Below, piece by piece: positions 3,360 to 57,755 of a stretch of 64,000 nt of DNA. Source of the stretch: Lucinisca nassula (Eukaryota > Mollusca > Bivalvia > Lucinida > Lucinidae); NCBI GenBank assembly GCA_963580285.1, contig OY757020.1:104783497-104847496 (forward strand), written 5' to 3'. Below the pieces are notes generated by a model, which saw only the letters and a list, made by a program, of their open reading frames with translations, was not told the origin of the DNA and did no database searches. Position numbers and translations under genes: made by a program. Numbering within the stretch: the first letter of the stretch is position 1; every line of letters starts with the position of its first letter.

Positions 3360-3429
3360 ATTTACTCTTAACCTGACACAGCTGCTTGGTGAGGCCAAGA
3401 ACAGTCCAAAATTGAAGATTGCAGATTCT
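3360..3429 (+). CDS. Candidate upstream exon of the spliced recombinase-like gene
   Basis: An acceptor-like 'attatag' precedes an open stretch encoding FTLNLTQLLGEAKNSP and then KLKIADS. It ends at a consensus donor GTAAGTTC in phase 0. The next candidate exon (8359) starts in phase 0, and every later junction to the large exon at 31395 also keeps frame, which supports the chain. The acceptor is weak because it lacks a clear pyrimidine tract. A better tract ends at 3335, but all three frames are stopped just after it. The true start codon is not identified and probably lies upstream, possibly outside the window. The segment has no recognisable domain. Confidence 0.45.
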
Positions 3430-3594
3430 GTAAGTTCTAATAAAAGCAGCATCTAGCTTTTGTTATAAGTATGCTATTCGGCTTGTGGTGCCAGTCAAAT
3501 CTGATTGGTTTAGCAGAGCGGTATTAGGCTTCACCCATTCTCAATGTTACTGTGTAAAATCTTGTAGCTAGGGATTGCAAGTTTAATGCAGGTA

Positions 3595-3865
3595 ACCATA
3601 TTTGACCTTGCCTACATTTCATGGCTCATATCAACTTAACAGATTTCGTGAAAATTTGCGACCAAATTTATTTCTCTATTACAGCTTGATTAATGTTACT
3701 TGGTACAAACTTGTATCTAGGGTTGGCAAGTTCAAGGCAAGCACATTTGACCTTGACCTACATTTCCTGGTTCACACACTTTGTGCACTATTGTGTCAAA
3801 CCTAGTGTTCACGCAAATGGTCCGCTTCATTTCTCATTTTTGCACCTGCTATTAGCATCATGCAG
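3595..3865. mobile_element. Core-repeat fragment of the 50.7-51.3 kb repeat family
   Basis: Phrases such as 'ttacttggtacaaacttgtatct', 'tttgaccttgacctacattt' and 'gttcacgcaaatggtc' match the tandem units at 50715-51345. It is degenerate and non-coding. Confidence 0.6.
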
Positions 3866-4031
3866 TGCCCCAGATAAGGGGAAATTTTGAGTATTTTACT
3901 CCCTTAAAGGTGGGTTATTGAGCTATCAGTAAGAAATTCTTCCAAAAATAAAATACATATAGCTGGTATTTTTCTTTATGATGACAGGTGAACGAGTTTG
4001 AGAGGGATTTCCTAACTAGGGCTTCAACACT

Positions 4032-7000
4032 AAGTAGAAGTAAAACAAAGATCAGGAATTGATACAATTAACTTACTCCATCCATAAAAGACACCAAAGG
4101 GAAAGAAATACAAACATTAAGCGACCAGACCATAATGGAAACCTAAACAAAGGAAGGCCATATGGACAGTTACTTTCCCACAAAATGGCCATATGGCCAT
4201 CCAAAATTAAAAGACACAAGTGATAAACACAGTAAGTAACAAACAACAACATAAATAAAATGCCACGGAAGAGCCGCCTTGGAACGGTCAGTGGAAGATT
4301 TCCACTGGGGGGCTTAAATCGATTCTACATGGCCACAATCCTCGCCCTTACTTCCGTCGCGATTAAGACAAATAATTTGTTCAGTCCGCATGAAGGCCTC
4401 CTAACTCATCAGTGCAACATCTCCGTGAACACAGAAATCAAAGAACCACAGAGGTGAGACAACGGTGAGGACTCGACAGCAAGAAACCACTGAAATGCTG
4501 GAGCAAAAGAAAACCAACAGTTAGACTCCGATGAGCCCGACCAGAGACAGAACATCAGGCACCAACCAACATTATCTCTTTAATTTTCAATAAGCCTTTA
4601 CGTTGGAGCCGTCATAGAATCTGAGGCCTGACCCACCGGCGTGCAATTAAAGAGGGAAGCAAAGTTGCCAACCGTGATTGGGTTAACTACCATGCATGCA
4701 GTCTGTCGTATAATATCCATGTTGTACCCAATCTTTTTATATCGAAGAATGATTTTACGAAATTGGGTGCTGAAGTCATTGCGGTTATATATTTTTCTGA
4801 ATTTATATACTAAGTCACCATAAAATTCGGGTTCCGATAGACCTTGTTGCAGAAGAGATTTAAGTCCAATATTGAATTTTGAAATTAAATCAGAATGGCG
4901 TCTATAAAATTTTGAAAAGGCTTTGCGTAGTTTATGGTACCGATAACCCTGATTAAGGAGTTTAGCCGTTAATAATTTATTACGAGTGTTGAAGTCAGTT
5001 ACATGACTACACACTCTAGCAAATCGAATTAATTGCGAAACATAAACGCCATAGGATGGCGCACGAGGAACATCACCATCCAAAAAAGGAAAATTTACAA
5101 TCTCAAAATCAAAGTCATCGCGTTTATCATAAATTTTGCACGAAACAAATCCATCTACAATAGATAGATGTAAATCCAAAAACGGGGCCTCGTTATCAGA
5201 AGAATTTGCTTTATTTAACTGAAGTTCAAGGGGGTAAATCTGACTGATCAAACCATCAAAATAGGTATTATCAATATTTAATAAATCATCTAAATATCTA
5301 GAAGTAGAGCTAAAAGCTTCAATAATTTCAGATTGGTTATCAATGGAAAGCGACAAAATGAAGTCTCTTTCATAACAATACAAGAACAGATCAGCCACAA
5401 GAGGTGCGCAATTAGTACCCATCGGAATACCCACAATTTGTCTAAATAACTTAGTACCGAATCTAATATAAATATTGTCAAGTAGAAAGGTGAGGGCATC
5501 ACACACTTTCTGACATGACCAAAGTGTATAATTCTTATGCTCTTTAGAAGTGAAAAATGCATTTCTGACATTACATGCAAGATAGAGAGAATCTTCTCTG
5601 TGAAAAGCCCATTCAATTAAATCATTAAGCTTTTCTTTTATAAGATTATGAGGAAGTGTAGTGTAAAGAGTGGAAAAATCGTAGGTAGACAGACTAGAAG
5701 CACGAAACTGTCTAGATTTCAATTTATTTAAAACCTCATTCGAATTTTTTATAGACCAAAACAGATTTCTTCCTGATCTTTCAAAGACTTTATCACAATA
5801 TTTAATTACATGCGTTTTAATAGCAGTAAGACAGGAAGTTAATAATTTAGAAAGTTCAGTGGTAGTGCAAGAGCTAGAATTTGCAATAAACCGTGCTTTG
5901 TAAGGTTTTTTATGAAGTTTTGGTAACCAGTATAGCGTAGGAAGCTTGTCTTGGCCTTCGTTAACACACACAGCAAACTTGGTGGCTGAAAGACAAACAT
6001 GTTTATCTACTATAGCTCTCTCTTCAGCCAAAGGCTGAAGTTCATAGGCCTTAGTACCACCAAGCTCCTGCTTAAGCGTGTTAACATAGTGGAGCCGTCA
6101 CACAACGACGACGTTGTTAGCGGCCTTGTCTGCAGGGGCCAAAACAAACTTCTTATGAAATTCTTGAATACCTAGTTTAAGATGACGTAAAGACGTCTTG
6201 GGCTTAGGAGGTAATAAGTTAGTATTTTGAGAATAGAAAGAAATGCGTTTATTCACTAGTCTTAAAATGCTAAGTTTCCAGTCCAATAGGGCTTTACACT
6301 CAACATACTCTCGCTTACACCATCGATTACCGAATTCATTCAAGGAAGCAGCGATTTCATCTCTACATTTACTGAAATCAATTTTAGAAGGAAACCGATA
6401 TTTCGGTCCTTTAGAAATTATATTCCTTATCCTAGAATCAGGAATAATTTTCAAATTGCCAGTAATTACATGACCAGCAGCAGGATAGCAATACTTTGAG
6501 TTTTTACAATCACATGAATCAGGAGTATTAGTATCAATATCAAGATCTGAAACAAGTTTATTGAAATTAAAAATGATAGATCTAACAGGTTTGTTATATT
6601 TATAGCAAATTATAGGTGTTTCAGTATTTTGAAAATAAGCAGGAATGGAAGAAAGCACCGATCTCTCACGGAAGATACTGGGCAAATCTATAAAATCCAT
6701 ACCCTTATTAATGAAGGATATTTTGAAGAAATGACGTTTATGATTAATTTCAGAATCAATGTAAGGACGGAGAGTATGCTGAGTATAGCCTCTAGTTAAG
6801 AGAGCCGCATCATATAACTGATGAGAACTATCGTAGAATTTATTCGCCTCGGTGTCCAGAAGACGTAAAACAGAAACGGGTAATGAACTTAAAAATGAAA
6901 GCATAGAGTGGCGTCCATGATTTAATAATATAATTGACAGTCACTTCAGTCTAGTATTGTTTCGTTTAAACGCACGTGATTTACGTTTAAAGTTACCATT

Positions 7001-7560
7001 TTTCCTGGTGCCGTGAGATCTAGTTCGGCGTTTTCGACATTCCAGGAGTGAGAAAATATCAAAGTCCGGCATTCTGGAAATATTACCCTCATGATAAATG
7101 TTGTCATTAAATCCCAGTGGAAAAGGGGTCTGTAAAAATTTAATCCATTTCAGTTCAGCTTCATGTCTTTTGATTATTTTGAATCTAGATGTAGAATTTG
7201 CATCGTAATAAAGTTTTTCCACTGGTTGTATAATAATGTTATTTACAGAATGACCTGTACGTCGAAAGTGACGGTACAAGAAAGTGTCAGTTTTCTTAGG
7301 CTTACTCATTCTACGATAATGCTCGTTCAATCTAGTTTTAAGCATGCGGTTAGTTTGACCGACGTACTGCATATTACAGTTTGCAGCACGTCAAGTAATT
7401 AGATAAATTAAATCTGTAGACTGTCATGTCAAATCAGACATGTTAACTACAGAGAAGCGTCTACCGTTTACAGATGAAGTAACGGTAGACGCAGTGCTTA
7501 AATGCGAACAACATCTGCACCTCTTGGCATTGCACTTAGAAATGCTAGGATACATTCCAC
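4032..7560 (-). mobile_element. Naiad-type Penelope-like retroelement with permuted domain order
   Basis: The minus strand carries, in order, a GIY-YIG endonuclease, a linker with a CxC motif, and a Penelope-type reverse transcriptase. This permuted order, with the nuclease N-terminal, defines the Naiad/Chlamys clade of Penelope-like elements and differs from canonical ones with a C-terminal nuclease. About 560 bp of 3' UTR follow the stop codon. The 5' junction with the flanking MITE lies only a few bases upstream of the first ATG, so this copy may be slightly 5'-truncated. Shorter 3' copies of the family occur at 16808-17480, 28742-29110, 30945-31165 and 45793-45960. Confidence 0.85.
4598..7555 (-). 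CDS. Naiad GIY-YIG/reverse transcriptase polyprotein with four in-frame TGA codons (putative selenocysteine)
   Basis: One reading frame runs 985 codons from ATG (7555-7553) to TAA (4600-4598). It is broken only by TGA at codons 44 (7426-7424), 55 (7393-7391), 205 (6943-6941) and 486 (6100-6098). There is no TAA, TAG or frameshift inside. Features in order: Cys-rich start RCRCCSHL (12-19); GIY-YIG nuclease with LIYLIT (49-54) and QYVGQT (63-68); CDC linker (348-350); RT with WLPKLHKKP (about 540), YDFSTLYT (about 625), GIPMGTNCAP (about 710) and RYLDD (about 755). The first two TGAs fall where related nucleases have cysteines (LT-C and IT-C next to LIYLIT). The fourth follows NNVVVV, also a usual cysteine position. 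Naiads with multiple selenocysteines are reported from clams. Ordinary decay to TGA is the alternative, but four of four stops being TGA in an otherwise clean frame argues against it. I could not identify a SECIS element by eye. Confidence 0.8.
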
Positions 7561-8099
7561 TTAGTTAGATCTATTTTTAGTTCATGACAAAAATAGAATC
7601 CCCATATATGACATGAGACGTTCATTTTTGGCCTTGTTTGCTTAGGCCATGCCTGAATTGGAAAAAAATATGATGCTGAATACCATGCCATAAGTAACGA
7701 CGCTCAGAGACGATATTGTCGCCATGTATGTGTAAAGTGACTGATTTATTTTTAGAACAAATTCGAACACATGTTCAGAGTGAGGGGTAAACACCAATGA
7801 AAACGACCATTTTCACAAAGTTCTGAAGCTGTATTTGGCTCCAGAAGTGTACACATGACAAAGGAGAATGAACTGAGGATAAAAAACAGAAAAAAATATT
7901 GAGACCTGGTAGCTCAATAACCCACCTTTAAAATTGGCAAATACTCCCTCATCTTCATTTTTTGCAGTACCATTTACTCCCTGGTTTTCAGTTTTACCCC
8001 CTCATTCTGATTTTTGTAGGATTTTTCAGCTTTATGCGACAAATATGATTTAGAATTTCTTCATCATGTAGAAATTTATATTTATTCATTTTTATGCTT

Positions 8100-8290
8100 C
8101 CTGAAGAATTTCGTTGGAGCATATAACCACCGCTTCGTCCGTGCGTCCGTCCCGCTCTTGTGTGCATGAATTCTCAGAAACTACTGGTCAAACGGCACCC
8201 GAATTTCATGATTTGAACACGGTTTTGCAGTTTGAGCACGGCTTTCCGTCTATTTGACCATGGATTCAAACAGCCATGCCTACAGATATT
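8100..8290. mobile_element. Possible end of a Helentron-like repeat
   Basis: 'cgcttcgtccgtgcgtccgtcccg' followed by 'ctcagaaactactggtc' has the look of the other element ends here, a short CGTCCGTC-type run followed by core repeat. It is too degenerate to bound. Confidence 0.3.
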
Positions 8291-16807: not shown

Positions 16808-17480
16808 TAAGTAAAGTAGAAGTAAAACAAAGATCAGGAATCGATACAATTAACTTACTCCCCCCAGCAAAGACACTAAAGGGAAAGAAACAAAAACACG
16901 AAGCAACCAGACCATAATGGAAACCTGAACGTAGGAAGGCCAAAAGGACAGTTACTTTCCCACGAAATGGCCTAATGGCCATCCAAATTGAAAGACACAA
17001 GTGATACACACAATAAGTAACAAACAGTGACATAAATAAACTGCCACAGAAGAACCACCTTGGAAAGGTCAGTGGAAAGAATTCCACAGGGGGGCTTTAA
17101 TCGATTTTACATTACCATAATCCTTGCCCTACTTTCTGTTGTGGTATAGACACTAATTTTGTTTAGTTTGCATGAAGGCTTCCTAACTCAACAGTGTAAC
17201 ATCTCCGCGAATATACAAATAAAAAAAACTACAGAGATGAAACGAGGTTGAGGACTCAAAGGCATACAACAGAAATGCTGGAGCAAAAGAAAACCAACAA
17301 TTAGACTCTGAGAGGCAAGAACACGAGCTGATCATCAGGTGCCAACCAACATTAAGAATAATAAAATTCCACCATGTTTTTACGCTGGAACCATCATATA
17401 ATCTTACACTTCATAAATACACAACAAGTCGTAATGCTGTCTACAGTTAAGGGTATGATTAAAATTTTCAATTACTTCGT
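16808..17480 (-). mobile_element. 5'-truncated, decayed Naiad copy (3' UTR and C-terminal end)
   Basis: This aligns along its length with 4032-4740, the 3' UTR and last codons of the Naiad ('aagtaaaacaaagatcagga', 'ggacagttactttccca', 'gagcaaaagaaaaccaac'). It has many substitutions and no open frame. Confidence 0.75.
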
Positions 17481-24362: not shown

Positions 24363-27300
24363 TTAAATCTTATGAAAAAGTCCAATTTCTTTTAAGAATA
24401 AAATAATATTATCAACAGGTACATCTCGAAACAGTTGTTGCAAAGTGTCAGCTTTGAAATATAAAATACGTGAGGGTGAAAAGTCAACACAGTCAATTAA
24501 GATATGTTTCACAGTGAATGGCTGATCACAACCTACACAAGAAGGCTGATCATCACCATTAAAAATATAAGAATGAGTAACTCTAGTATGGCCGATGCGC
24601 AGTCGTGTTAATACTACGTCCTCTTTTCTGGAAAACTGTGGAGGAGAGCATTTTGTACTAACGACAGGTTTAATGGCATGGAGTTTGTTATTTATTGCAC
24701 GGTCCCATTCGCCTTGCCATTCCGACAAGATGTATCTATTGATAAATGGTTTAAAATTGTTAAAAGGAATTTTAAAAGCAGATGGATCAAGATTGAGCGA
24801 TTCCTTTGCTTTCTTGTCAGCATATTCATTGCCGACAATGCCAATATGGCTCGGAAGCCAACAAAACAAGATTTGTTGTGTTTTAGAAATTTCATGATGT
24901 TTTTCGATCAATTTTTGAATTTGAGGATTTTTAGATGATGAATGGTCTAAAGCCTTAAGCACAGAAAGTGAATCCGAAAATATAATTGCTTTTTGAATTG
25001 TTGAAGAACTGATAAAATCTAAAGCTAGGTCTATTGCTTTGGCTTCAGCTGTAAAAATAGATGAACCATCTGGAAGGCGCATGGTTTTGTGCGTATCTTT
25101 AGAAACATACGCACAGCCAACTTTATCTCCTTCTTTGGAACCATCAGTATAGACTTGCTGGTAATCATTGTAACGTGACTGCAGTACCTGAAAGTTTTGT
25201 TTGAGAAGTATTGGATTTGATTCGGATTTTTTTCCATCATGTAAGTCGAACAGAATAGAAGGTTGTTTAATACACCAAGATGGAACTTCGGCGGTTTCAT
25301 GTTTTTGAATATTTTTAAGGTCGATACCTGAATTTTCCAGCAGTGGTAAAATACGTAATCCAAAAGGTTTGATTGCTGTGGGTTTTGTTTCATACTTATC
25401 TACAAATTGAGGTCGAAATGAAATTTTGGATGCCGGGTTAGATGGATTTGCAGCAAGTCTGATAGCATACTGAAGAGAAAGTTTCTCTCTGCGCGAGGTT
25501 AAAGATGGTTCACCTGCTTCTACATAAAGGCTTAATACGGGAGAAGTACGGAAGGCTCCCATGGCCAGACGAAGGCCTTGGTGATGGATAGTATCCAAGG
25601 ATTTTAAATAGGACTTTCTGGCAGAACCATAAACAACAGACCCATAATCTAATTTAGATCTTATTAAAGACCGGTAAAGATGTAATAAAGTATACCGATC
25701 TGCTCCCCAACTTGTATGAGCTAAAACTTTCAAAAGATTCAAAGCTTTTAAGCATTTCGCTTTAAGATATTTAATATGTGGAATAAAAGATAACTTTTGA
25801 TCAAATATGACCCCAAGAAATTTGGCTTCTTCAACAACAGGAATTTGTGATCCGTATAAAAACAGGGAAGGATGTTCGTGTTTCTTCCGTAGTTTACAAA
25901 AATGAACACACTGCGTTTTCGACTTGGAGAACTTGAAACCATTTTTATCAGTCCATTCTTCTATTCTTTTTAAATTTTGATGTAACTTTCGTTCAATTGT
26001 TTTCATATTTTTTGAACGGTAACATATACAAAAATCATCAACATACAATGAACAATCAGTTTTGTCGTCCAAACATTGTACAATATTGTTTATTTTGATG
26101 TTAAATAGCGTAGTTGAAAGAATACTACCCTGTGGGACACCCTGTTCTTGATCATATAAATCTGACAGGGTAGACCCCACACGCACCTGAAACATGCGCT
26201 CCCCTAAAAAGCTTTCAATAAAACTGGGAAGTTTTCCTCTTAAGCCAATGTTATGTAGATCTTTCAATATTCCATAACGCCATGTTGTATCATATGCTTT
26301 CTCCAAGTCGAAAAAGACAGCCACTACGTGTTCTTTGTTAATAAAAGCATCTCGTATAAATGTTTCTAGTCTTATTAAATTGTCATTGGTACTACGTTCC
26401 GAACGAAAGCCCGATTGATATTCTGAAATGAGGTTGTTGGACTCTAAGTACCAGACTAATCTCTTGTTTATCATTCTCTCCAATGTTTTACACAAACAAC
26501 TTGTCAAAGCTATCGGACGATAATTTGTAGGTTCTGCATGATCTTTCCCTGGTTTCGGAATTGGTACAACTGTAGCTACACGCCAACTCTCAGGACAGAC
26601 CCCCGTTTCCCAAATATTATTAAAGATATCTAAAAGTGTTGTAAGAGAACTTTTTGGCAGATGCTTAAGCATCTGATAATGAATTTCATCGGGGCCGGTT
26701 GCCGTATCATGTGATTTTTCAATGGCTTCAACGAGTTCTGATAAGTTAAATGGTGTGTTGTATTCTTCGTGATTAAGGGATTTGAAGTTAAGTTTTCTTT
26801 TCTCCTGGTCCTTTTTGAAATTTCTAAAAGTGTCAGAATAATTACGCGATGATGAATTTCTCAAAAATGTGTGACCAAGAGTATCTGAAATATCTTTTTT
26901 TGTTGAAGCTATTGTGTCAAATTCAGTATTTAAATGTGTAAAACTAGAAGACTTTGTTTTTCCTGAAATTTTTCGTACCATATTCCAAACCTTTTTAATG
27001 GGGGTTTTATAGTTCAATTTGGAGACATATTCTCTCCATGACTTTCGTTTGGAAGCTCGGATTGTTCGCCGAGCTTTAGCTCTAAAAACTTTTACGTCGT
27101 TGAGCTTTTCTGAAGTGGGATTTTTGCAGAACTTATTTAGAGCCTGTTTACGCTTTTTAATAGCTTCTTTACAGTCATTATTAAACCAAGGCTTGCTTTT
27201 CTTAGTATTTGTGGAGGTCTTTGGAATGCATTGTTCTGATATGTTAATAAGTGTATCTGTGAAATCAGAAACAATGTCAGATGATTCATTTAAGTGATCA

Positions 27301-28049
27301 ACTGATAACTCTTCTTCACATAAATTATGGAATAATTCCCAGTCGGCTTTATTCATTTTCCATTTCTGGTTACAGTCTTCATCTGGTTCGTTTACGCTCT
27401 CTATTATAACAGGAAAGTGATCACTTCCGCACTGATCATCATGAACAGACCAGTCATAGTCCAAGAAGAGAGATGGGTGACACAAAGAGAGATCTAAAGA
27501 AGACAAATGACCTGTCGCAGGGTGAAGGTAAGTATAAGATTTATCATTCATCAAGCAAAGATCCTTCTTTGCAATAAAATCTTCGACAAGTGCTCCTCTG
27601 TTATTGACATCTTTACAGCCCCATAGAATATTGTGACCATTGAAGTCGCCAACTAAAAGATATGGCGATGGAAGTTGACTCAGCAATGAGTCAAGATGTT
27701 CGGGCTTTAAAGAAAATGAGGGTGGGATATATAGAGAGCAAACTGTAGTTTCTTTATCCAGAGAAACCGATACTGCTACAGCTTGAAGGTCGGTTTTTAA
27801 TTTGATCTCTCTTTGTGGTAAACATGATTTAACAAAAATTGAGCTGCCACCAGATGGTTTGTTACCATCAGAATAGATATAGTTGTATGTATTGAAACCC
27901 CTGACATCTATGTTGTCATCAGTTTTTAAAAAAGTTTCTTGCAAACAAAACACCGATGGGGTTAGTAGCGAAATAAGTAATAAGAGTTCATTATAATTTG
28001 ATTTAAGACCTCGACAATTCCATTGTATTATTTTGTGCTTTAAATCCAT
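24363..28049 (-). CDS. LINE ORF2: endonuclease, reverse transcriptase, RNase H
   Basis: An uninterrupted 1228-aa frame. The N-terminal endonuclease/exonuclease/phosphatase domain shows QWNCRGL (about 9), QETFL (about 37), GDFNGHNILWG (about 136) and SDHFPV (about 210). The reverse transcriptase shows PIPKPGKDHAEPTNYRPIAL (about 500), FFDLEKAYDTTW (about 575), GVPQGSILS (about 640) and YVDD (about 675). RNase H shows YTDGSKEGDKVG (about 965), AEAKAIDLAL, FSDSLSVLKAL and WLPSHIGIVGNEYADKKAK. A C-terminal CVGC...HILIDC knuckle follows. The RNase H places it in the I superfamily (I/Nimb-like); the clade was not resolved. It begins 33 bp after the ORF1 stop. All visible catalytic motifs are intact, so it could act in trans even though the copy is 5'-truncated. 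Confidence 0.93.
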   Translation of the reverse strand: MDLKHKIIQWNCRGLKSNYNELLLLISLLTPSVFCLQETFLKTDDNIDVRGFNTYNYIYSDGNKPSGGSSIFVKSCLPQREIKLKTDLQAVAVSVSLDKETTVCSLYIPPSFSLKPEHLDSLLSQLPSPYLLVGDFNGHNILWGCKDVNNRGALVEDFIAKKDLCLMNDKSYTYLHPATGHLSSLDLSLCHPSLFLDYDWSVHDDQCGSDHFPVIIESVNEPDEDCNQKWKMNKADWELFHNLCEEELSVDHLNESSDIVSDFTDTLINISEQCIPKTSTNTKKSKPWFNNDCKEAIKKRKQALNKFCKNPTSEKLNDVKVFRAKARRTIRASKRKSWREYVSKLNYKTPIKKVWNMVRKISGKTKSSSFTHLNTEFDTIASTKKDISDTLGHTFLRNSSSRNYSDTFRNFKKDQEKRKLNFKSLNHEEYNTPFNLSELVEAIEKSHDTATGPDEIHYQMLKHLPKSSLTTLLDIFNNIWETGVCPESWRVATVVPIPKPGKDHAEPTNYRPIALTSCLCKTLERMINKRLVWYLESNNLISEYQSGFRSERSTNDNLIRLETFIRDAFINKEHVVAVFFDLEKAYDTTWRYGILKDLHNIGLRGKLPSFIESFLGERMFQVRVGSTLSDLYDQEQGVPQGSILSTTLFNIKINNIVQCLDDKTDCSLYVDDFCICYRSKNMKTIERKLHQNLKRIEEWTDKNGFKFSKSKTQCVHFCKLRKKHEHPSLFLYGSQIPVVEEAKFLGVIFDQKLSFIPHIKYLKAKCLKALNLLKVLAHTSWGADRYTLLHLYRSLIRSKLDYGSVVYGSARKSYLKSLDTIHHQGLRLAMGAFRTSPVLSLYVEAGEPSLTSRREKLSLQYAIRLAANPSNPASKISFRPQFVDKYETKPTAIKPFGLRILPLLENSGIDLKNIQKHETAEVPSWCIKQPSILFDLHDGKKSESNPILLKQNFQVLQSRYNDYQQVYTDGSKEGDKVGCAYVSKDTHKTMRLPDGSSIFTAEAKAIDLALDFISSSTIQKAIIFSDSLSVLKALDHSSSKNPQIQKLIEKHHEISKTQQILFCWLPSHIGIVGNEYADKKAKESLNLDPSAFKIPFNNFKPFINRYILSEWQGEWDRAINNKLHAIKPVVSTKCSPPQFSRKEDVVLTRLRIGHTRVTHSYIFNGDDQPSCVGCDQPFTVKHILIDCVDFSPSRILYFKADTLQQLFRDVPVDNIILFLKEIGLFHKI

Positions 28050-28741: not shown

Positions 28742-29110
28742 GGAGGGTTTAGTTAGGAAGTCTTCATGCGCGCTGAACAAAATTAATGTCTATACCGCTG
28801 CAGAAGTAAGGGCGAGGATTGTAGCCACGTAATATTGATTTAAGCCCTCCAGTGGAATTCTTTCCACTGACTGTTCCAAGGCAGTTCTTCTGTGGTGGTT
28901 TATATATATGTAATTGTCTGTTACTGATTGTGTGTATCACTTGAGTCTTTTTATTTTGGATGTTTGTGGGAAAGTAACTGTCCTTTAAGCTATCCTCTGT
29001 TGAAGTTACCATTATGGTCTGGTCGCTTTGTGTTTCTTTCCCTTTGGTGGGCAGAGTAAGTTAGTTGTACCGATTTCTGATCATAGATTAACTTCAACTT
29101 TTATTCACAC
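28742..29110 (+). mobile_element. Naiad 3' UTR fragment
   Basis: It matches the Naiad 3' UTR in sense orientation ('aagtaagggcgaggattgt', 'tttccactgactgttccaag', 'gggaaagtaactgtcc', 'tatggtctggtcgcttt'). It lacks coding sequence. Confidence 0.75.
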
Positions 29111-30264: not shown

Positions 30265-30944
30265 TTTGATTCTAACACACTGAAAATGTGTAATCGTAAT
30301 TATGTTGTTGAATTACTCTATGCGCTTGTGATTTGCTCTACTTTTAACTGACCTCCAAACTGTAATTTATTACTCAACAATTCACATGTCAGAGCTGATC
30401 TATTTCAATTCTAACATACTGAAAATGGGTAATTATGGTGTTGATTTATTCAAATTCTCCCAGCCCAAAACCATAGTTAGAAGCAATCCTGCCAAAATTA
30501 TTGACTGACTGTAATACATGCATTTACGTCCTTTTCTAACGTTGTACATACGAGAAAATTATGATACACCATCTAACACCAAGAAAATCAACAAGTGACA
30601 TCATAAACTTGTACTTTTTAATGATGTCACTCGTCACGCTCTCCAAGCCATGATTTGTTGCAGAATAAAACACAGTTCTTTTCCACTGCCTATTTAGGCG
30701 CGCTGTGTTAGAACATCGGTTTTATAATAGCATGGCGTTTTGATAATAGATCAATGATTTTGCCTTTTATCTGGAATTCTTCTAAATGAAGAAACACAAT
30801 ATATCATGATTAGATTATGAGTTCCATATGAAGCATGGTTCAGTGATTTTGGATTAATCTTGGCTAATATTTGTTTGAGATATGTCATATGAGCAATATA
30901 TTTGTGTTTGGAAAAGAAATCCTATTAAAATACTGGCGGTTTAT

Positions 30945-31165
30945 TTGTGGTATTGTTTGTCAGAAACTATGTATTGCTTATATATTTTTATTTTGGATAG
31001 CCAGTTGGCCATTTTATGGGAAAGTAACTGTCCCTTTGGCTTTCCTCTGTTATTGTTTCCATCAGGGTCTAGTTACTTCTTGTTTGTGCTTCTTTCCCCT
31101 TTGGTGTCTCTGTTGGGAGGTGTAAGTTAATTGTATTGATTCCTGATCACTGCTTTACTTCTACT
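30945..31165 (+). mobile_element. Naiad 3' UTR fragment
   Basis: It matches the far 3' end of the Naiad in sense orientation ('gggaaagtaactgtccctt', 'tttccctttggtgtctctg' with changes, 'aattgtattgattcctgatc'). It lies about 230 bp upstream of the large recombinase exon. Confidence 0.7.
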
Positions 31166-31394
31166 TTTTATGTTAGAGCTATTCCAAAAAATTTTTATAT
31201 ATGTGAGACATTGTTTGACAAGTAGGCGAGCTATGCTTTCTTGATGACACTTTGGTAGGGGATAATAGGGATTTAATTTCAGCCTAAATGCACAAATGTT
31301 TGACAGTTCTGACCTTACATTTGTGCCATACTTTTTTTCCCATAGAATACATACTCTATTTCCAGGGACTGCATTGATTAATCTGTCATTTCAG

Positions 31395-32978
31395 AAACCG
31401 GATCGCTTCTGTGTTTTTTGCAAAAATATATTTAGGGGTGGAAAATTAAAAAAACACCAGAAAAGAGCACACAAAGATGTCCCAGAAATTAAAGAAATTA
31501 TGAAGATGGACAAGACTACTCAGAACAGGTTTTTTGACCAGAAAAGGAAAGAAGGGATTTATCTTTTCAATTATGACTTAATTACACAGGATAAAGACCC
31601 AATTATGAGGGAAAGAAAGCCCCAACATGCCGATAATCTTAGAATATGTTCAGAATGTAAGGGGTACTATTCGAGCAAGTACTTCTTTAAACACAAATGC
31701 CTAACAAAAGCTCCTGTTGCTCTGAAGCCAACTCTTCTGCAAAAAGTAAATATAGCTAAAATAGACAAAGACACAGATTTCCAAGACATTTTAAACAGGT
31801 TAACTGACAATGAAGTAGGAAATTTAATTCGAACAAATTATACTGTACAATTAATCGGATATAAGCACTTCAGTCTGAGAAAACATGAAGAGGGTAAAGA
31901 AGATGAAGTGAGAATAGTAGTAATGACAGATATGAGGGAGCTTTGTAGATTATTTTTAACATTTAAAGATTTAAAGGGTGCAGAATTAGAGGTCGAAGAA
32001 ATGTTCAAAAGGGAAAATTTAGATGACCTTCAAGAGGCTATAGAGCAAATGGTGAAAAAAGAGAATAATGAAGAAAAATATGGATTGAAACTTTTGTTAG
32101 ACGCATTTATATTGAGGGCTATCAAAACACTAAAAGGTCACTACTCAGAGACAATCCAAGACACCAAAGGCAAAGAACTGAAAAATTTTTTAACAGCTTA
32201 CAAGTACAGATCCTGTGAGATGTTCCCTAAAGCTAGACAAGCCTGCATGAAAAAGTCTAAAGAAATAGCCAGAAGACCTGCAAATCTACCAGATGAAATG
32301 GAATTAAGAAAACTTCAAGACTACATCAAATTTAATATGAATCGCATAGTGACAAACTTTCAAGTCAAACAGTATACAGAGTTAAGATCACTAGCAGTTG
32401 CAAGACTAACCCTTTTCAATGCACGCAGAGGCGAGGAGCCATCTCGTATGCTGTTGAAAGAATGGGAGGATGCTGAGAAAGGGGTCTGGGTCCCACCAGA
32501 GCAATTGAAAGGTATGAAAGATGAGGCCGAAAAGTTCTTGGTAGGTCAGTACAAATTGTGCTATCTGTCTGGCAAAGGTAAAGATTTGGTGTCGGTCTTT
32601 ATACCAATTGACACTTTGCCAGCTATCAGAATTCTAGTGAAGGAAAGATATAATTATGGGCTGTCACCACAAAACAATTTTGTATTTGCTACAAAGACAA
32701 TTCCAGGTAGAAAGCCAGCACATACTTCAGGATGGCATGCTTTGAATGATTTATGTCGCTTGGCTGATGTCAACATACCTATTACGGCAACAAAGATGAG
32801 ACATCGCCTCTCCACCGTATATGCAAGCTTAGACATGTCAGAATCAGACCTTAAAATCTTCCTAGAGCACATGGGCCATGAATCAACAATTTCCAGGGAG
32901 AATTACCAGTGCCCGCCTGGAGTCAGTGCTATGAGAGTGATGGGGAAGCTTCTTCAGGATGTGGACCAAGGTATCTAA
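31395..32978 (+). CDS. Terminal exon: two zinc fingers plus Crypton-like tyrosine recombinase domain
   Basis: The exon starts after 'aatctgtcatttcag' and runs 527 codons to a TAA. A C2H2 finger opens it (FCVFCKNIF...HQKRAH). A second finger-like C-X2-C...H-X-C follows (CSECKGYY...FKHKC). A long helical region precedes the catalytic part. Tyrosine-recombinase signatures are LTLFNARRGE (first Arg), TATKMRHRLST (second Arg-His pair, with Thr where the family usually has His three residues before Arg), EHMGHES (His) and ISRENY (candidate nucleophile Tyr). Phage-type recombinases cut and rejoin DNA through that Tyr, and Crypton transposons use such enzymes. The chain of upstream host-style exons suggests a domesticated gene rather than a mobile copy. 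Termini typical of a transposon were not seen. An AATAAA follows at 33053. A GTATCT near the end (32970) could instead act as a donor. Confidence 0.7.
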   Translation, partial: KPDRFCVFCKNIFRGGKLKKHQKRAHKDVPEIKEIMKMDKTTQNRFFDQKRKEGIYLFNYDLITQDKDPIMRERKPQHADNLRICSECKGYYSSKYFFKHKCLTKAPVALKPTLLQKVNIAKIDKDTDFQDILNRLTDNEVGNLIRTNYTVQLIGYKHFSLRKHEEGKEDEVRIVVMTDMRELCRLFLTFKDLKGAELEVEEMFKRENLDDLQEAIEQMVKKENNEEKYGLKLLLDAFILRAIKTLKGHYSETIQDTKGKELKNFLTAYKYRSCEMFPKARQACMKKSKEIARRPANLPDEMELRKLQDYIKFNMNRIVTNFQVKQYTELRSLAVARLTLFNARRGEEPSRMLLKEWEDAEKGVWVPPEQLKGMKDEAEKFLVGQYKLCYLSGKGKDLVSVFIPIDTLPAIRILVKERYNYGLSPQNNFVFATKTIPGRKPAHTSGWHALNDLCRLADVNIPITATKMRHRLSTVYASLDMSESDLKIFLEHMGHESTISRENYQCPPGVSAMRVMGKLLQDVDQGI

Positions 32979-38924: not shown

Positions 38925-41001
38925 ATGGATTTAAAACACAAAATAATACAATGGAATTGTCGAGGTCTTAAATCAAATTATAATGAACTCTTATTACTTA
39001 TTTCGTTATTAAACCCGTCGGTTTTTTGTTTGCAAGAAACTTTTTTAAAAACTGATGACAACCTTGATGTCAGGGGTTTCAATACATACAACTATATCTA
39101 TTCTGATGGTAACAAACCATCTGGTGGCAGTTCAATTCTTGTTAAATCATGTTTACCACAAAGAGAGATCAAATTAAAAACAGACCTACAAGCTGTAGCA
39201 GTATCGGTTTCTCTGGATAAAGAAACTACAATATGCTCTTTATATATTCCACCCTCATTTTCTTTAAAGCCCGAACATCTTGACTCATTGCTGAGTCAGC
39301 TTCCATCCCCATATCTTTTAGTTGGCGACTTCAATGGTCACAATATTCTATGGGGCTGTAAAGATATCAATAACAGAGGAGCACTTGTTGAAGATTTTAT
39401 TGCAAAGAGCGATCTTTGCTTGATGAATGATAAATCTTATACTTACCTTCACCCAGCGACAGGTCATTTGTCTTCTTTAGATCTCTCTTTGTGTCACCCA
39501 TCTCTCTTCTTGGACTATGACTGGTCTGTTCATGATGATCAGTGCGGAAGTGATCACTTCCCTGTTATAATTGAGAGCGTAAACGAACAAGATGAGGACT
39601 GTAGCCAGAAATGGAAAATGAATAAAGCCGACTGGGAATTATTCCGTAATTTATGTGAAGAAGAGTTATCAGTTGGTCACTTAAATGAATCATCTGACAT
39701 TGTTTCTGATTTCACAGATAAACTAATTAATATATCAGAACAATGCATTCCAAAGACCTCCACAAATACTAAGAAAAGCAAGCCTTGGTTTAATAATGAC
39801 TGTAAAGAAGCTATTCAAAAGCGCAAACAGGCTCTAAATAAGTTCTGCAAAAGTCCCACTTCAGAAAAGCTAAACGACGTTAAAGTTTTTAGAGCTAAAG
39901 CTCGGCGAACAATCCGAGCTTCCAAACGAAAGTCATGGAGAGAATATGTCTCCAAATTGAACTACAAAACCCCCATTAAAAAGGTTTGGGATATGGTACG
40001 AAAAATTTCAGGAAAAACAAAGTCCTCTAGTTTTACACATTTAAATACTGGTTTTGATACAAAAGCTTCAACTAAAAAAGATATTTCAGATACTCTTGGT
40101 CACACATTCTTGAGAAATTCATCATCGCGTAATTATTCTGACACTTTTAGAAATTTCAAAAAGGACCAAGAGAAAAGAAATCTTAACTTCAAATCCCTTA
40201 ATCACGAAGAATACAACACACCTTTTAACTTATCCGAACTCGTTGAAGCCATTGAAAAATCACATGATACGGCAACCGGCCCCGATGAAATTCATTATCA
40301 GATGCTTAAGCATCTGCCAAAAAGTCCTCTTACAACACTTTTAGATATCTTTAATAATATTTGGGAAACGGGGGTCTGTCCTGAGAGCTGGCGTGTAGCT
40401 ACAGTTGTACCAATTCCAAAACCAGGGAAAGATCATGCAGAACCTACAAATTATCGTCCGATAGCTTTGACAAGTTGTTTGTGTAAAACATTGGAGAGAA
40501 TGATAAACAAGAGATTAGTCTGGTACTTAGAGTCCAACAACCTCATTTCAGAATATCAATCGGGCTTTCGTTCGGAACGTAGTACCAATGACAATTTAAT
40601 AAGACTAGAAACATTTATACGAGATGCTTTTATTAACAAAGAACACGTAGTAGCTGTCTTTTTCGACTTGGAGAAAGCATATGATACATGGCGTTATGGA
40701 ATATTGAAAGATCTACATAACATTGGCTTAAGAGGAAAACTTCCCAGTTTTATTGAAAGCTTTTTAGGGGAGCGCATGTTTCAGGTGCGTGTGGGGTCTA
40801 CCGTGTCAGATTTCTATGATCAAGAACAGGGTGTCCCACAGGGTAGTATTCTTTCAACTACACTATTTAACATCAAAATAAACAATATTGTACAATGTTT
40901 GGACGACAAAACTGATTGTTCATTGTATGTTGATGATTTTTGTATATGTTACCGTTCAAAAAATATGAAAACAATTGAACGAAAGTTACAACAAAATTTA
41001 A
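38925..41001 (+). pseudogene. LINE ORF2, N-terminal part (endonuclease and most of reverse transcriptase)
   Basis: This is 692 codons nearly identical to the intact ORF2 at 24363-28049, from MDLKHKIIQWNC through YVDD to ERKLQQNL. One Thr codon is missing in RT motif A (AYDTWRY here, AYDTTWRY in the other copy). The frame is cut at 41001 by the pearl-like insertion and reads on for only 19 codons of foreign sequence. Confidence 0.9.
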
Positions 41002-43918
41002 CAAGAGCTCCGCAAGCGGGGCATTATACGCCCGTGGCAAATTCGTATTTGGTAGACTGAAATCTGAAAACAGTATTCATTGCTTATTCATGGTGGAACT
41101 ATTTTTCAAGTTTCAATGGGTGACAGCAAAATGCAAGAAGAGCATGCACAGTGCGAATCCAGAGCTAGGGCATCACAAACAGAGCTTTCTTCCTTTTCCC
41201 TGTATTGCTGCATCCACAGCAAACAGCTTAGAACTAGAATTAATCTGATTAGCAATTTAGTACACATAAAAAAGAGCACTTATAGCATTTGCTTAGCCTT
41301 TAACCTGCTGAATATTCAATTAAGCCACACCCAAATCTGACTTTGAACCAATCAGATTACTCGATGCAGTTTATTTCTACATGTTCATTTACTGAATGTC
41401 AGTGTAGATCCTGATCAGATGACTTCTTCAGAAGGTGCCACAAAACAATACTTACAGTTAGAAAATATGCAATGTAAAATCAATCTCAGAATAAGAGCCC
41501 ATCTGAAAAAAACAAAACAAAACAAAAGATACAACTTCAAATATAAACACCACAGGAGTCTCATCTTGATCTAGGCTGAGTTATCTGGAAACCAAGCTGT
41601 TTACTGAAGGACGGATGGATGGACACAAACACCATAGCATTATGTTTGTTTTTTTTCTTCTCTTTTTTTTTTAGAACAGGCATATCTACCTCAGACAATC
41701 AGAAAAAAGGTACCTACAAACCCTGCCCAATGGCAGACAGACCCCAGCCCATAACAAATTCAAGCTTTTTTTTTCAAACAGCAGTATTGACCTCAGAATA
41801 AGTACCCCCAAATGAAAATGTTTTTTACAGAAATTTTCAAAGGGTCATAACTCTATTAATATTTGGTGGACGGTTCACCTCGAAACCTCACACACATGTT
41901 CAGACCACAGTCTTGCTATCTTCCAAGTGTCAGGTTGATCGAATGAAAACTGACAGAGGCGTTATCCTGAAAAGAAGAAGCTTATGGGCAGATGGGCGGA
42001 AAGGCGGACGGAGGCGGTCCTAATGGATGCCAACTCCATAACATAATGCGACGTTTTTTATCAAAATGGGCATATGTTTAGGTTAATCACTTGTTATCCA
42101 TAAACAAAATTTTCAAGGGGTCATAATGTTATTAATATTTTGTGTATGGTTAACCTCAAAACTTAACGCACATTTCCAGCTCAGTCTTACTATCTACAAA
42201 GTATCGGGTTAATCAGAATAAAACTGTAGTACGAGATATGCGGAATGAGAATGTTTACTGAAAAAATTCAAAATTTATCTACCAATTGTCAGGTTGATCG
42301 AATGAAAACTGACAGAGGCGTTATCCTGAAAAGAAGAAGATTTTGGGCAGATGGGCGGAAAGGCGGACGGAAGCGGTCCTAACGGACGCCAACTCAATAA
42401 CATAATGCGACGTTTTTTATCAAAATGTCCGGAAACGAAAATGTTTACAAAAAACTGACAGAGGCGTTATCCTGAAAAGAAGAAGATTTTGGGCGGATGG
42501 GCGGATGGGCGGAAAGGCGGACGGAAGCGGTCCTAACGGACACGAAGTCAATAACATAATGCGACGTTTTTTATCGAAATGTCCGGAAACGAAAATGTTT
42601 ACAAAAATTTCAAAGGGATATAACTGTTAATATTTGGCGGACGTTAATACTCGAAACTTTACGAACATCTATACATCAAGGTTTATCTACCTACCAAGTT
42701 TCAGCTTGATCTGATGAAAACTCTAGGAGTAATCCGGAAATGAAAATACTTACAAAAATTTCAAAGGGGCATAACTCTTTTAATATTTGAAGGATGTTAA
42801 TTCTCGAAACTTTACCCACATCTACACATCATGGTCTTACTACCTCCCAAGTTTCAGCTTGATCGGATGAAAACTGTAGGAGGAGTTATCCGGAAACGAA
42901 AATGTTTACAAAAATTTCAAAGGGACATAACTCTGTTAATATTTGGCGAACGTTAATTCTCGAAACTTTACGCACATCTACACATCATGGTCTTACTACC
43001 TACCAAGTTTCAGCTTGATCGGATGAAAACTGTAGGAGGAGTTATATGGAAACGAAAATGTTTACAAAAATTTCAAAGGGACATAACTCTGGTAATATTT
43101 GGCGAACGTTAATTCTCGAAACTTTACGCACATCTACACATCATGGTCTTACTACCTACCAAGTTTCAGCTTGATCGGATGAAAACTGTAGGAGGAGTTA
43201 TCCGGAAACGAAAATGTTTACAAAAATTTCAAAGGGGCATAACTCTGTTAATATTTGGCGGATGTTAATTCTCGAAACTTTACGCACATCTACACATCAT
43301 GGTCTTACCACCTACCAAGTTTCAGCTTGATCGGATGAAAACTGTAGGAGGAGTTATCCGGAAACGAAAATGTTTACAAAAATTTCAAAGGGACATAACT
43401 CTGTTAATATTTGGCGAACGTTAATTCTCGAAACTTTACGCACATCTACACATCATGGTCTTACTACCTACCAAGTTTCAGCTTGATCGGATGAAAACTG
43501 TAGGAGGAGTTATCCGGAAACGAAAATGTTTACAAAATTTTCAAAGGGGCATAACTCTGTTAATATTTGGCGAACGTTAATACTCGAAACTTTACGCACA
43601 TCTACACATCATGGTCTTACTACCTACCAAGTTTCAACTTGATCGGATGAAAACTGTAGGAGGAGTTATCCGGAAACGAAAATGTTTACAAAATTTTCAA
43701 AGGGGCATAACTCTGTTAATATTTGGCGAACGTTAATTCTCGAAACTTTACGCACATCTACACATCATGGTCTTACTACCTACCAAGTTTCAACTTGATC
43801 GGATGAAAACTGTAGGAGGAGTTATCCGGAAACGAAAAGTTTACGGACGGACGGACGGACGGACGGACAGACGCGGACCCCATAACATAATACGTCCCGT
43901 TTTTTCAAAACGGGCGTA
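41002..43918 (+). mobile_element. Pearl-like (Helentron-related) element inserted in LINE ORF2
   Basis: It begins CAAGAG followed by the palindrome GCTCCGCaaGCGGGGC. An array with 156-bp period follows (about 42590-43840, anchored by 'aaaatgtttacaaaaatttc' at 42901, 43057, 43213, 43369, 43525 and 43681), with rougher repeats from 41820. Next come an (ACGG)n run (43843-43868) and the terminal hairpin CCCGTTTT/AAAACGGG (43892-43913). A tandem core near 160 bp plus an ACGG microsatellite is the described architecture of bivalve pearl elements. The junction lies in TTTAA/AAAAG, so any target duplication is at most 2-3 bp and ambiguous. Confidence 0.85.
41150..41275 (+). pseudogene. Captured fragment of a LINE C-terminus inside the pearl-like element
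   Basis: 'ggcatcacaaacagagct' followed by a frame reading CCIHSKQLRTRINLISNL resembles the terminal finger of the decayed LINE at 24000-24090, which has the same 'ggcatcacaaacagagct' lead-in. It is too short for function. Confidence 0.55.
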
Positions 43919-43920
43919 TA

Positions 43921-45528
43921 AAAAGAATAGAAGAATGGACTGATAAAAATGGTTTCAAGTTCTCCAAGTCGAAAACGCAGTGTGTTCATTTTTGTAAACT
44001 ACGGAAGAAACACGAACATCCTTCCCTGTTTTTATACGGATCACAAATTCCTGTTGTTGAAGAAGCCAAATTTCTTGGGGTCATATTTGATCAAAAGTTA
44101 TCTTTTATTCCCCATATTAAATATCTTAAAGCGAAATGCTTAAAAGCTTTGAATCTTTTGAAAGTTTTAGCTCATACAAGTTGGAGAGCAGATCGGTATA
44201 CCTTATTACATCTTTACCGGTCTTTAATCAGATCTAAATTAGATTATGGGTCTGTTGTTTATGGTTCTGCCAGAAAGTCCTATTTAAAATCCTTGGATAC
44301 TATCCATCACCAAGGCCTTCGTCTGGCCATGGGAGCCTTCCGTACTTCTCCCGTATTAAGCCTTTATGTAGAAGCAGGTGAACCATCTTTAACCTCGCGC
44401 AGAGAGAAACTTTCTCTTCAGTATGCTATTAGACTTGCTGCAAATCCATCTAACCCGGCATCCAAAATTTCATTTCCACCTCAATTTGTAGATAGGTATG
44501 AAACTAAACCCACAGCAATTAAACCTTTTGGATTACGTATTTTACCACTGCTGGAAAATTCAGGTATCGACCTTAAAAATATTCAAAAACATGAAACCGC
44601 CGAAGTTCCATCTTGGTGTATTAAACAACCTTCTATTCTATTCGACTTACATGATGGCAAAAAATCCGAATCAAATCCGATACTTCTCAAACAAAACTTT
44701 CAGGTACTGCAATCACGTTACGATGATTACCAGCAAGTCTATACTGATGGTTCCAAAGAAGGAGATAAAGTTGGTTGTGCGTATGTTTCTAAAGATACGC
44801 ACAAAACCATGCGCCTTCCAGATGGTTCATCTATTTTTACAGCTGAAGCCAAAGCAATAGACCTAGCTTTAGATTTTATCAGTTCTTCAACAATTCAAAA
44901 AGCAATTATATTTTCTGATTCACTTTCTGTGCTTAAGGCTTTAGACCATTCATCATCTAAAAATCCTCAAATTCAAAAATTGATCGAAAAACATCATGAA
45001 ATTTCTAAAACACACCAAATCTTGTTTTGTTGGCTTCCGAGCCATATTGGCATTGTCGGCAATGAATATGCTGACAAGAAAGCAAAGGAATCGCTCAATC
45101 TTGATCCATCTGTTTTTAAAATTCCTTTTAATAATTTTAAACCATTTATCAATAGATACATCTTGTCGGAATGGCAAGGCGAATGGGACCGTGCAATAAA
45201 TAACAAACTCCATGCCATTAAACCTGTCGTTAGTACAAAATGCTCTCCTCCACAGTTTTCCAGAAAAGAGGACGTAGTATTAACACGACTGCGCATCGGC
45301 CATACTAGAGTTACTCATTCTTATATTTTAAATGGTGATGATCAGCCTTCTTGTGTAGGTTGTGATCAGCCATTCACTGTGAAACATATCTTAATTGACT
45401 GTGTTGACTTTTCACCCTCACGTATTTTATATTTCAAAGCTGACACTTTGCAACAACTGTTTCGAGATGTACCTGTTGATAACATTATTTTATTCTTAAA
45501 AGAAATTGGTCTTTTTCATAAGATTTAA
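43921..45528 (+). pseudogene. LINE ORF2, C-terminal part (end of RT, RNase H, zinc knuckle)
   Basis: The frame resumes at KRIEEWTDKNGFKFSKSK and runs 535 codons to TAA, exactly where the first part broke off. RNase H motifs YTDGSKEGDKVG, AEAKAIDLAL, FSDSLSVLKAL and WLPSHIGIVGNEYADKKAK are intact, as is CVGC...HILIDC. The two parts total 1227 codons, one fewer than the intact copy. Confidence 0.9.
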
Positions 45529-45792: not shown

Positions 45793-45960
45793 GTACCGTA
45801 AAAGTAAAACAATTATCAGGAATAGATACAATTAACTTACACCTCCCATCAGAGATACCAAAGGGAAAGAAGCACAAAAATGGAGTGACTAGACCCTAAT
45901 GGAAACAATAAGAGAGGAAAGCCAGAAGGACAGTTACTTTCCCACAAAATGGGCTCGGGT
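45793..45960 (-). mobile_element. Naiad 3' UTR fragment
   Basis: On the minus strand it matches the last about 170 bp of the Naiad ('ggaatagatacaattaactta', 'accaaagggaaagaagcaca', 'ggacagttactttcccacaa'). Confidence 0.75.
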
Positions 45961-56939: not shown

Positions 56940-57755
56940 CTGAGATTACTTTTTTGGGACTTTGGAGGTGTTATGGAACATTTTCAAATGCATGCAAATG
57001 TAGGCTAGATACATTTGTATTGTTTACATTAAAGGTGCATTATTGAGTTATCCGGAAAAAATGCTTCCAAAAATAAAATACATATAACCGGTATTTTTCT
57101 TTAAAACAATACAAATGAATGTATTTTATGCAAAAATGCGAACAAATGTGATGACAGGTAAACGAATTTGAGAGGGATTCCCTAACTATGTTTCGAACTC
57201 TAGTTAGATCTATTTTTAGTTCGTGACAAAAATAGAATCCCCATATATGACGTTATGCGACGTTCATTTTTGGCCTTGTTTGCTTAGGCCATGCCTGAAT
57301 CGGAAAAAATATGACGCTGAATACCATGCCGTAAGTATTGACACTCAGAGACGATACTTTCGCCATGTATGTGTAAAGTTAAAGATTTATTTTTAGAACA
57401 GAAAATCCGAACACATGTTCAGAGTGAAGGGTAAACACGAATGAAAACGACCATTTTCACAAAGTTCTGAAGCTGTATTTGGCTCCAAAAGTGTACACAT
57501 GACAAAGGAGTATGCATTGAAGATAAAAACCAGAAAAAAAAATTGAGACCTGGTAGCTCAATAATGCACCTTTAAGCCCACTTGTTTCATTTATAAGATT
57601 TCAAATATATGGTTCCCTTGTCCCAAAAAAGTAGTTGTGTGTGTTTTATCACAGCCTGCGATGCAGGATGTGTCTATCCATAGACATCATCCAGTGGATT
57701 GTTGCCTGGCACCCGCAGGAGGCTGTCTATGGTTACGCAGTGAACAATTTAATAG
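56940..57755 (+). repeat. Local duplication, copy 1 (contains a MITE)
   Basis: Sequence flanking the MITE (about 56960-57032 and 57572-57755) is repeated at 58685-58941 with about 5-8% differences. Phrases include 'aaattttcaaatgcatgcaaatg', 'gcccacttgtttcattta' and 'ggctgtctatggttacgcag'. Confidence 0.85.
57033..57571. mobile_element. 539-bp TTAA-flanked MITE (piggyBac-like), intact
   Basis: The ends AGGTGCATTATTGAG and CTCAATAATGCACCT are exact inverted repeats, flanked by TTAA (57029-57032 and 57572-57575). The interior aligns with the MITE split by the Naiad at 3908-7927. The empty site is preserved at 58758. Confidence 0.9.

Follow-up and report, generated by a model that had tools for sequence, protein, structure and literature searches.

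A Naiad-type retroelement of the bivalve Lucinisca nassula with four in-frame UGA codons and a SECIS-like element across its stop codon

Naiads lie within the Penelope-like elements and are defined by a protein in which a GIY-YIG nuclease comes first, a linker with a CxC motif follows, and a reverse transcriptase (RT) comes last. They have an insertion-in-fingers domain and an insertion bias for microsatellites, and the label CCHH denotes two Cys between the GIY and YIG motifs followed by two His. Selenoproteins are rare in mobile DNA, and the Naiad clade of Craig, Yushenova, Rodriguez and Arkhipova (2021) is said to include forms with multiple selenocysteine (Sec) residues in clams and spiders. 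The selenocysteine insertion sequence (SECIS) of fowlpox virus GPX4 is reported to be located inside the open reading frame (ORF) and to be functional (PMC6769590, PMC8310308), a coding-region SECIS is reported to be less efficient than one in the 3′ untranslated region (UTR; PMC2397514), and selenoprotein P has several UGA codons in one ORF with two SECIS elements in its 3′ UTR (PMC2397514, PMC8310308). Here we analyze a Naiad-type element within 64,000 nucleotides of the L. nassula genome (assembly GCA_963580285.1, contig OY757020.1, positions 104,783,497 to 104,847,496, hereafter the window), whose frame is interrupted by four TGA codons. We consider it likely, from comparison of sequences, that this ORF is translated as a selenoprotein by way of the host machinery, directed by a SECIS-like element that straddles the stop codon.

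The original prediction described a minus-strand frame of 985 codons with four TGA codons, no TAA, TAG or frameshift, and a terminal TAA, and rereading the strand bore this out, including the placement of the TGA codons at 44, 55, 205, and 486 and of the CxC motif, here CDC, at codons 348–350. A chance origin of the frame is ruled out, as the probability of 985 codons without TAA or TAG in random sequence of equal composition is ∼4e-22; such sequence would hold ∼17 TGA codons in place of the four observed. The plus strand over the same region is crowded with stops. The claimed identity also stood: the element is a Naiad-type Penelope-like element with an N-terminal GIY-YIG nuclease, a CxC linker, and a telomerase-like RT. 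Its 85 related proteins align with it across nuclease, linker, and RT, and C350 of the CxC motif is nearly invariant in an alignment (A1) that uses 70 of the 86 proteins. The GIY-YIG motifs of the frame align with those of its relatives, with U55 and C60 located between the LIYLIT and QYVG motifs. In a Pfam search at 1e-3 the frame itself (P0001) gave no match, and when the aligned N-terminal region of six relatives was tested, four (P0025, P0034, P0037, and P0053) exceeded the PF01541 (GIY-YIG) cut-off, P0028 fell just under it, and P0022 had no match. An AlphaFold2 model of the frame from 70 sequences has a mean predicted local distance difference test score (pLDDT) of 88.5, and in a Foldseek comparison with the PDB ranks 1–16 are all telomerase RT, with low global TM-scores (0.24–0.33 by query); a sequence search of the PDB with the frame matched no chain. 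Tandem arrangement and 5′ truncation, which are both Naiad traits, are seen in the family, and no hammerhead ribozyme is among the four Rfam matches listed at expectation values (E) up to 10 for positions 3400–8200. Scans of viral contigs for relatives found none. A scan of genome contigs found one distant relative, L047, in a contig binned as a Flavobacteriales metagenome-assembled genome (MAG), which is probably animal DNA in a bacterial bin. The relative P0175 is located in a MAG of Thiodiazotropha, a clam symbiont.

The TGA codons had been predicted to lie at or near Cys positions, which is upheld strongly at 44, 55, and 486 and weakly at 205. In the 86 aligned proteins, with the query included as C, 53 rows have a residue at column 44, which is Cys in 51, W in one, and P in one (three of the Cys rows, P0014, P0019, and P0024, look misaligned). 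The count for Cys at column 55 is likewise 51 out of 53, and at column 486 Cys is found in 72 of 86 rows and W in nine. At column 205 the query alone has C in this alignment, and over 125 closer relatives the residues are D (87), N (11), C (6, one of which, P0015, is of uncertain alignment), E (6), V (5), and others; a further single Cys is found in P0278 and in L047. Because it is mostly Asp, with Cys in few relatives, we regard column 205 as a lineage-specific site. Two of 120 ORF fragments, 99% and 87% identical, end exactly before codon 205, and the 99% identical one may come from the source species; in the tree, the sister group of the lineage with TGA at 205 is weakly supported (0.31). 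Fragment searches in other assemblies used codons 56–290 (best 120 of 1438 matches) and codons 206–485 (best 120 of 1536). With the first query 54 of the best 120 fragments end exactly at 347, before the first Cys of the CxC motif, and with the second 63 end exactly at 485, 51 of these at <60% identity. In fragments that read past codon 348 the residue there is C (56), W (40), R (10), S (6), a gap (3), L (2), A (1), or V (1), that is, for the most part Cys, a residue a single base change away from TGA, or W from a translated TGA. As read from these fragments, the set of stop positions varies between lineages at fixed columns, with 348 being a stop in many relatives and Cys here. Our initial view that every W in the predicted relatives is a TGA under translation table 4 had to be softened, since R, S, and L also occur and some of these residues may be TGG or other codons one change away from TGA.

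The W residues at these columns in some predicted relatives bear on the possibility that, through an altered code or readthrough, the UGA codons specify Trp or a near-cognate residue and not Sec. We consider this very unlikely, as W is expected from TGG or a table-4 TGA, R, S, and L are found beside it, the distant relatives have Cys and not Trp, and both a SECIS-like element and tRNA-Sec genes are present. A search of the host genome with the tRNA-Sec model gave 31 matches, nine of them above the 47-bit cut-off. ARAGORN identifies the two highest-scoring ones (80 and 77.4 bits) as tRNA-Sec with a TCA anticodon; the next, at 49.5 bits, is a tRNA-Ser. The score alone is permissive, because the same search gave matches in 14 of 14 control genomes, above the cut-off in five. 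The host thus carries two predicted tRNA-Sec genes.

If the TGA codons were accidents, sibling copies should have random stops, and the same TGA codons were found instead. The sibling search of the 2.93-Gb genome took the 46 top-scoring matches, window copy included, all covering codons 1–985, and its query carried C at the four TGA sites, which should favor Cys copies. Four TGA codons are present in 44 of the 46 scored copies (one with an extra TAG) and three in the other two, which both have TGT (Cys) at codon 55 and are neighbors in one tandem array; at this locus (L031, G000:C16:64834600-64842800) the tandem Naiad units are 4151 bp long and 99.9% identical. Match spacings suggest further tandem arrays. 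In all 30 loci read, out of the 44 with four TGA codons, these codons and the TAA are unchanged, and a second query, with no place in common with the first list, found two TGA codons within the matched span in 64 of 64 matches. Both lists are of best-scoring matches by protein score, in which decayed copies are under-represented. The window copy belongs to subfamily A; three loci read of its sister, subfamily B, have the same TGA sites, the truncated L034 having 205 and 486 only. The older subfamily C is represented by 10 loci, which were fetched by way of a solo 3′ tail ∼17 kb into the window that begins just upstream of the SECIS-like element. That the family consists of decayed pseudogenes, with TGA codons arising as chance nonsense mutations, would agree with the truncation of the window copy and of most of the fetched subfamily C copies. 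We regard it as extremely improbable given the identical TGA codons of the siblings, with a single TAG overall, the relatives that stop at the same columns down to ∼50% identity, and the selection seen between subfamilies.

The ratio of nonsynonymous to synonymous substitution rates (dN/dS), which the original prediction proposed to compare across copies, is 0.19–0.41 between subfamilies, with 14 pairs reported among 10 loci and 10 further loci giving no reported pair. Between A and C it is 0.19–0.24 in four pairs and 0.34 in a fifth, and between B and C it is 0.23 and 0.33. Within A, full-length pairs compared across the entire frame give 0.05 and 0.18, from few changes, and truncated C copies among themselves give 0.87 and 1.29. 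Since codons after 486 supply the four low A–C values, these values show translation and selection of the region beyond all four UGA codons; the full-length A and B pairs cover all four. The same fact leads us to give slightly more weight to another explanation, in which the UGA codons are real stops and either the nuclease and RT are made separately, for example by reinitiation, or the copies depend on Cys-only copies for mobilization in trans. Most of the measured selection lies after codon 486, which alone does not prove one continuous protein, a helper could amplify a young, near-identical burst, and two siblings already have one Cys reversion. Nevertheless, three of the four UGA codons stand where relatives have a conserved Cys, and two of these three are within or next to the nuclease motifs. 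The low values within A extend over the whole frame, and a TGA-free copy is absent among the 110 best-scoring matches, beyond which a rare Cys-only copy may exist, even though the first query carried C, so that we think real stops unlikely.

The original prediction also proposed a search for a SECIS in the region downstream of the frame (4597–4032). A SECIS-like element does exist, at 4625–4546 on the minus strand, and searching the proposed stretch would have split it because it straddles the stop and is partly in the coding frame. It matches Rfam SECIS_1 with 24.9 bits, below the Rfam cut-off of 35 (E 0.13 over 4227 families, or ∼3e-5 for one family by our own division), and is the sole SECIS among the 33 Rfam matches listed for the 64-kb window. 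Core, spacing, and apical adenosines are all present: the AUGA core lies in ATG ACG of the terminal SMTAPT, 12 bases before the apical AAA, which is formed by the two A's of the UAA stop and the following A. The same model gives 25.1 bits in six of six sibling A loci, 24.1 bits in one B locus, and 21.1–21.3 bits in two of seven C loci. In a pattern scan the window element is ranked second and the 17-kb copy ninth out of 313. Subfamilies A, B, and C all retain the core and arms while the surrounding codons alter the protein (SMTAPT vs. YMTVPA), with an extra hairpin in the loop in subfamily B. Exceptions are L029, in which the 3′ arm is deleted, and L043, which lacks one base of the A run and is altered in the 3′ arm; the pattern is fitted neither by L029 nor by L045, which has no ORF match. 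An alignment of 13 of the 18 distinct sequences, from which the commonest A form (L002 type), L019, L025, the L032 form, and L042 were excluded, has helix II paired in 104 of 104 cells. As an argument from compensatory change helix II is weak, with one pair varying as CG/UG/UA, and a comparison of helix I by eye was dropped owing to register shifts between subfamilies. In 15 of 325 proteins, the query among the 15, the C terminus consists of SD[SA]M followed by four residues (SDSMMAPT in nine), which is compatible with a similar stop overlap elsewhere. No SECIS match was found for L047, which has Cys at all of the TGA columns.

Several observations weigh against translation as a selenoprotein directed by this element, beginning with the sub-threshold SECIS_1 score and with column 205, which is Asp in most relatives and scattered among residues in distant ones. 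Five of the seven C loci are not among the SECIS_1 matches listed at E up to 10, nor is the 17-kb tail copy of the window among those listed at E up to 3. Of 500 shuffles, 148 attain the covariation score of the SECIS alignment, the freely folded sequence does no better than its shuffles (z of −0.16 and −0.88), and the 17-kb copy alone folds differently. The sharing of TGA codons within the genome is partly due to recent common descent, and the fragment ends of relatives reveal a stop, not which stop codon. Finally, the only dN/dS pairs to span a TGA are those with L046, at codon 486, and those of full-length A and B copies; among the latter, the A–B pair has a dN/dS of 0.41. Selenocysteine use nevertheless remains well supported by the Cys columns, the shared TGA codons, the SECIS-like element, and tRNA-Sec; it is the function of the SECIS and the insertion of Sec itself that we infer.

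We put forward as most likely a mechanism in which the Sec machinery of the host would recode UGA at four positions, three of which are conserved Cys columns. Recoding would be directed by the SECIS across the end of the ORF, with the UAA stop providing apical adenosines, and Cys and Sec codons would have been swapped repeatedly at fixed columns. The simplest account of the repeated exchange is that, with a SECIS present, a change from Cys to UGA is a one-step and tolerated change. The exchange would suit a permissive ratchet, in which such changes cost little once the SECIS exists. A bolder alternative would be a selenium-dependent limit on expression. Here the SECIS across the termination codon, with its AUGA core coding and its 3′ arm untranslated, would be a self-limiting, selenium-dependent switch on the protein output of the retrotransposon, a suggestion that we make tentatively and to which we would give slightly less than even chances. 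If it is true, the terminating ribosome would have to melt the very SECIS that let it arrive, and heavy translation would therefore limit further Sec insertion.

The window copy itself, which the original prediction thought might be intact, is not. It lies inside a dispersed host repeat whose ends are 26-bp inverted repeats (3904–3929 and 7906–7931), and a copy of that repeat with an empty site brackets the insertion (Table 1). The last base that it has in common with the full-length sibling L002 is 7562, and its homology ends 7 bases upstream of its ATG, while 29 other loci match one another for at least ∼95 bases upstream of that ATG. In 24 of these 29 the frame stays open for another 89 codons upstream, as far as an in-frame ATG, and the remaining five (L006, L013, L015, L024, and L028) end short of it. 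By our own count, the open frame is 1097 codons long in 34 of the 46 scored copies and 988 codons long in the window copy. The loss of homology together with the continuation of the siblings indicates that the window copy is 5′-truncated, and the 89 extra codons rule out its ATG as the true start. Judged from its sequence, this copy should not yield a working protein.

Table 1. Coordinates in the window of the Naiad element, its SECIS-like element, and associated repeats.
Feature	Position	Strand	Basis
Open frame, 985 codons with four TGA and a TAA end; GIY-YIG nuclease, CxC linker, reverse transcriptase	4598..7555	-	Frame reading, alignment, model
TGA codon 44, putative Sec/Cys column directly before the GIY motif	7424..7426	-	Cys in relatives
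TGA codon 55, first of two Cys positions between the GIY and YIG motifs	7391..7393	-	Cys in relatives; TGT in two siblings
TGA codon 205, linker, lineage-specific	6941..6943	-	Asp 87, Cys 6 of 125 relatives
CxC motif CDC, codons 348–350	6506..6514	-	Many relatives have a stop at 348
TGA codon 486, Cys column before the RT	6098..6100	-	Cys in most relatives
YLDD, RT catalytic motif, codons 754–757	5285..5296	-	Nearly invariant D756 and D757 (alignment A1)
SECIS-like element; ATGA core in last sense codons; TAA stop (4600-4598) gives two of three apical A's	4546..4625	-	Rfam SECIS_1
Naiad insertion, approximate bounds, inside another repeat; 5′ end truncated	4019..7561	-	Empty-site copy; 3′ end common to other copies ∼4032
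3′ region after the stop, common to sibling copies and solo tails in the window	4032..4597	-	Repeat comparison
Host-repeat copy without Naiad (empty site)	57029..57575	+	Comparison with interrupted copy
Dispersed repeat interrupted by the Naiad	3904-4018 and 7562-7931		Second copy 57029-57575 uninterrupted
Solo 3′ tails of related Naiads	16814-17404, 28751-29100, 30934-31166, 45798-45952		

Other mobile elements are also found in the window. An open 1228-residue ORF on the minus strand (24363–28049) with endonuclease, RT, and RNase H domains is a non-LTR (long terminal repeat) retrotransposon, and two plus-strand ORFs (38925–41060 and 44149–45528) jointly have endonuclease, RT, and RNase H in that order and are apparently one non-LTR element split by ∼3 kb. 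A 560-residue ORF on the plus strand (31296–32978) has a weak tyrosine-recombinase match (PF00589, below the cut-off).

A literature search, covering top-ranked results with most subscription papers outside its scope, found neither Naiad selenoproteins nor a SECIS overlapping a stop codon. A multi-selenocysteine Naiad is nonetheless an already known kind of element, and this assignment is very probably right here; the stop-spanning SECIS may be new, and it and the shifting UGA sites are the points of most interest. A young, abundant retroelement with four UGA codons is a natural experiment on Cys/Sec exchange, with copies that differ in having Cys or UGA at the same column, and if the SECIS truly includes the stop codon, then termination and recoding compete for one RNA. 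It also serves as a warning for annotators, as such ORFs resemble pseudogenes and get broken into fragments.

The essence of the comparison with known systems is as follows. The element resembles the selenoprotein forms of Naiads in its N-terminal GIY-YIG nuclease, CxC linker, RT, several UGA codons, high copy number, and tandem copies, and differs from them in its lineage-specific UGA at 205 with Cys at position 348 of the CxC motif, and in its SECIS candidate across the stop codon. It shares several UGA codons per ORF with selenoprotein P, which differs by having two SECIS elements in the 3′ UTR and is an unrelated protein. As reported for fowlpox virus GPX4, the SECIS is not confined to the 3′ UTR, but the viral element is within the frame, whereas the candidate in this Naiad straddles the stop codon and makes the stop part of the conserved loop.

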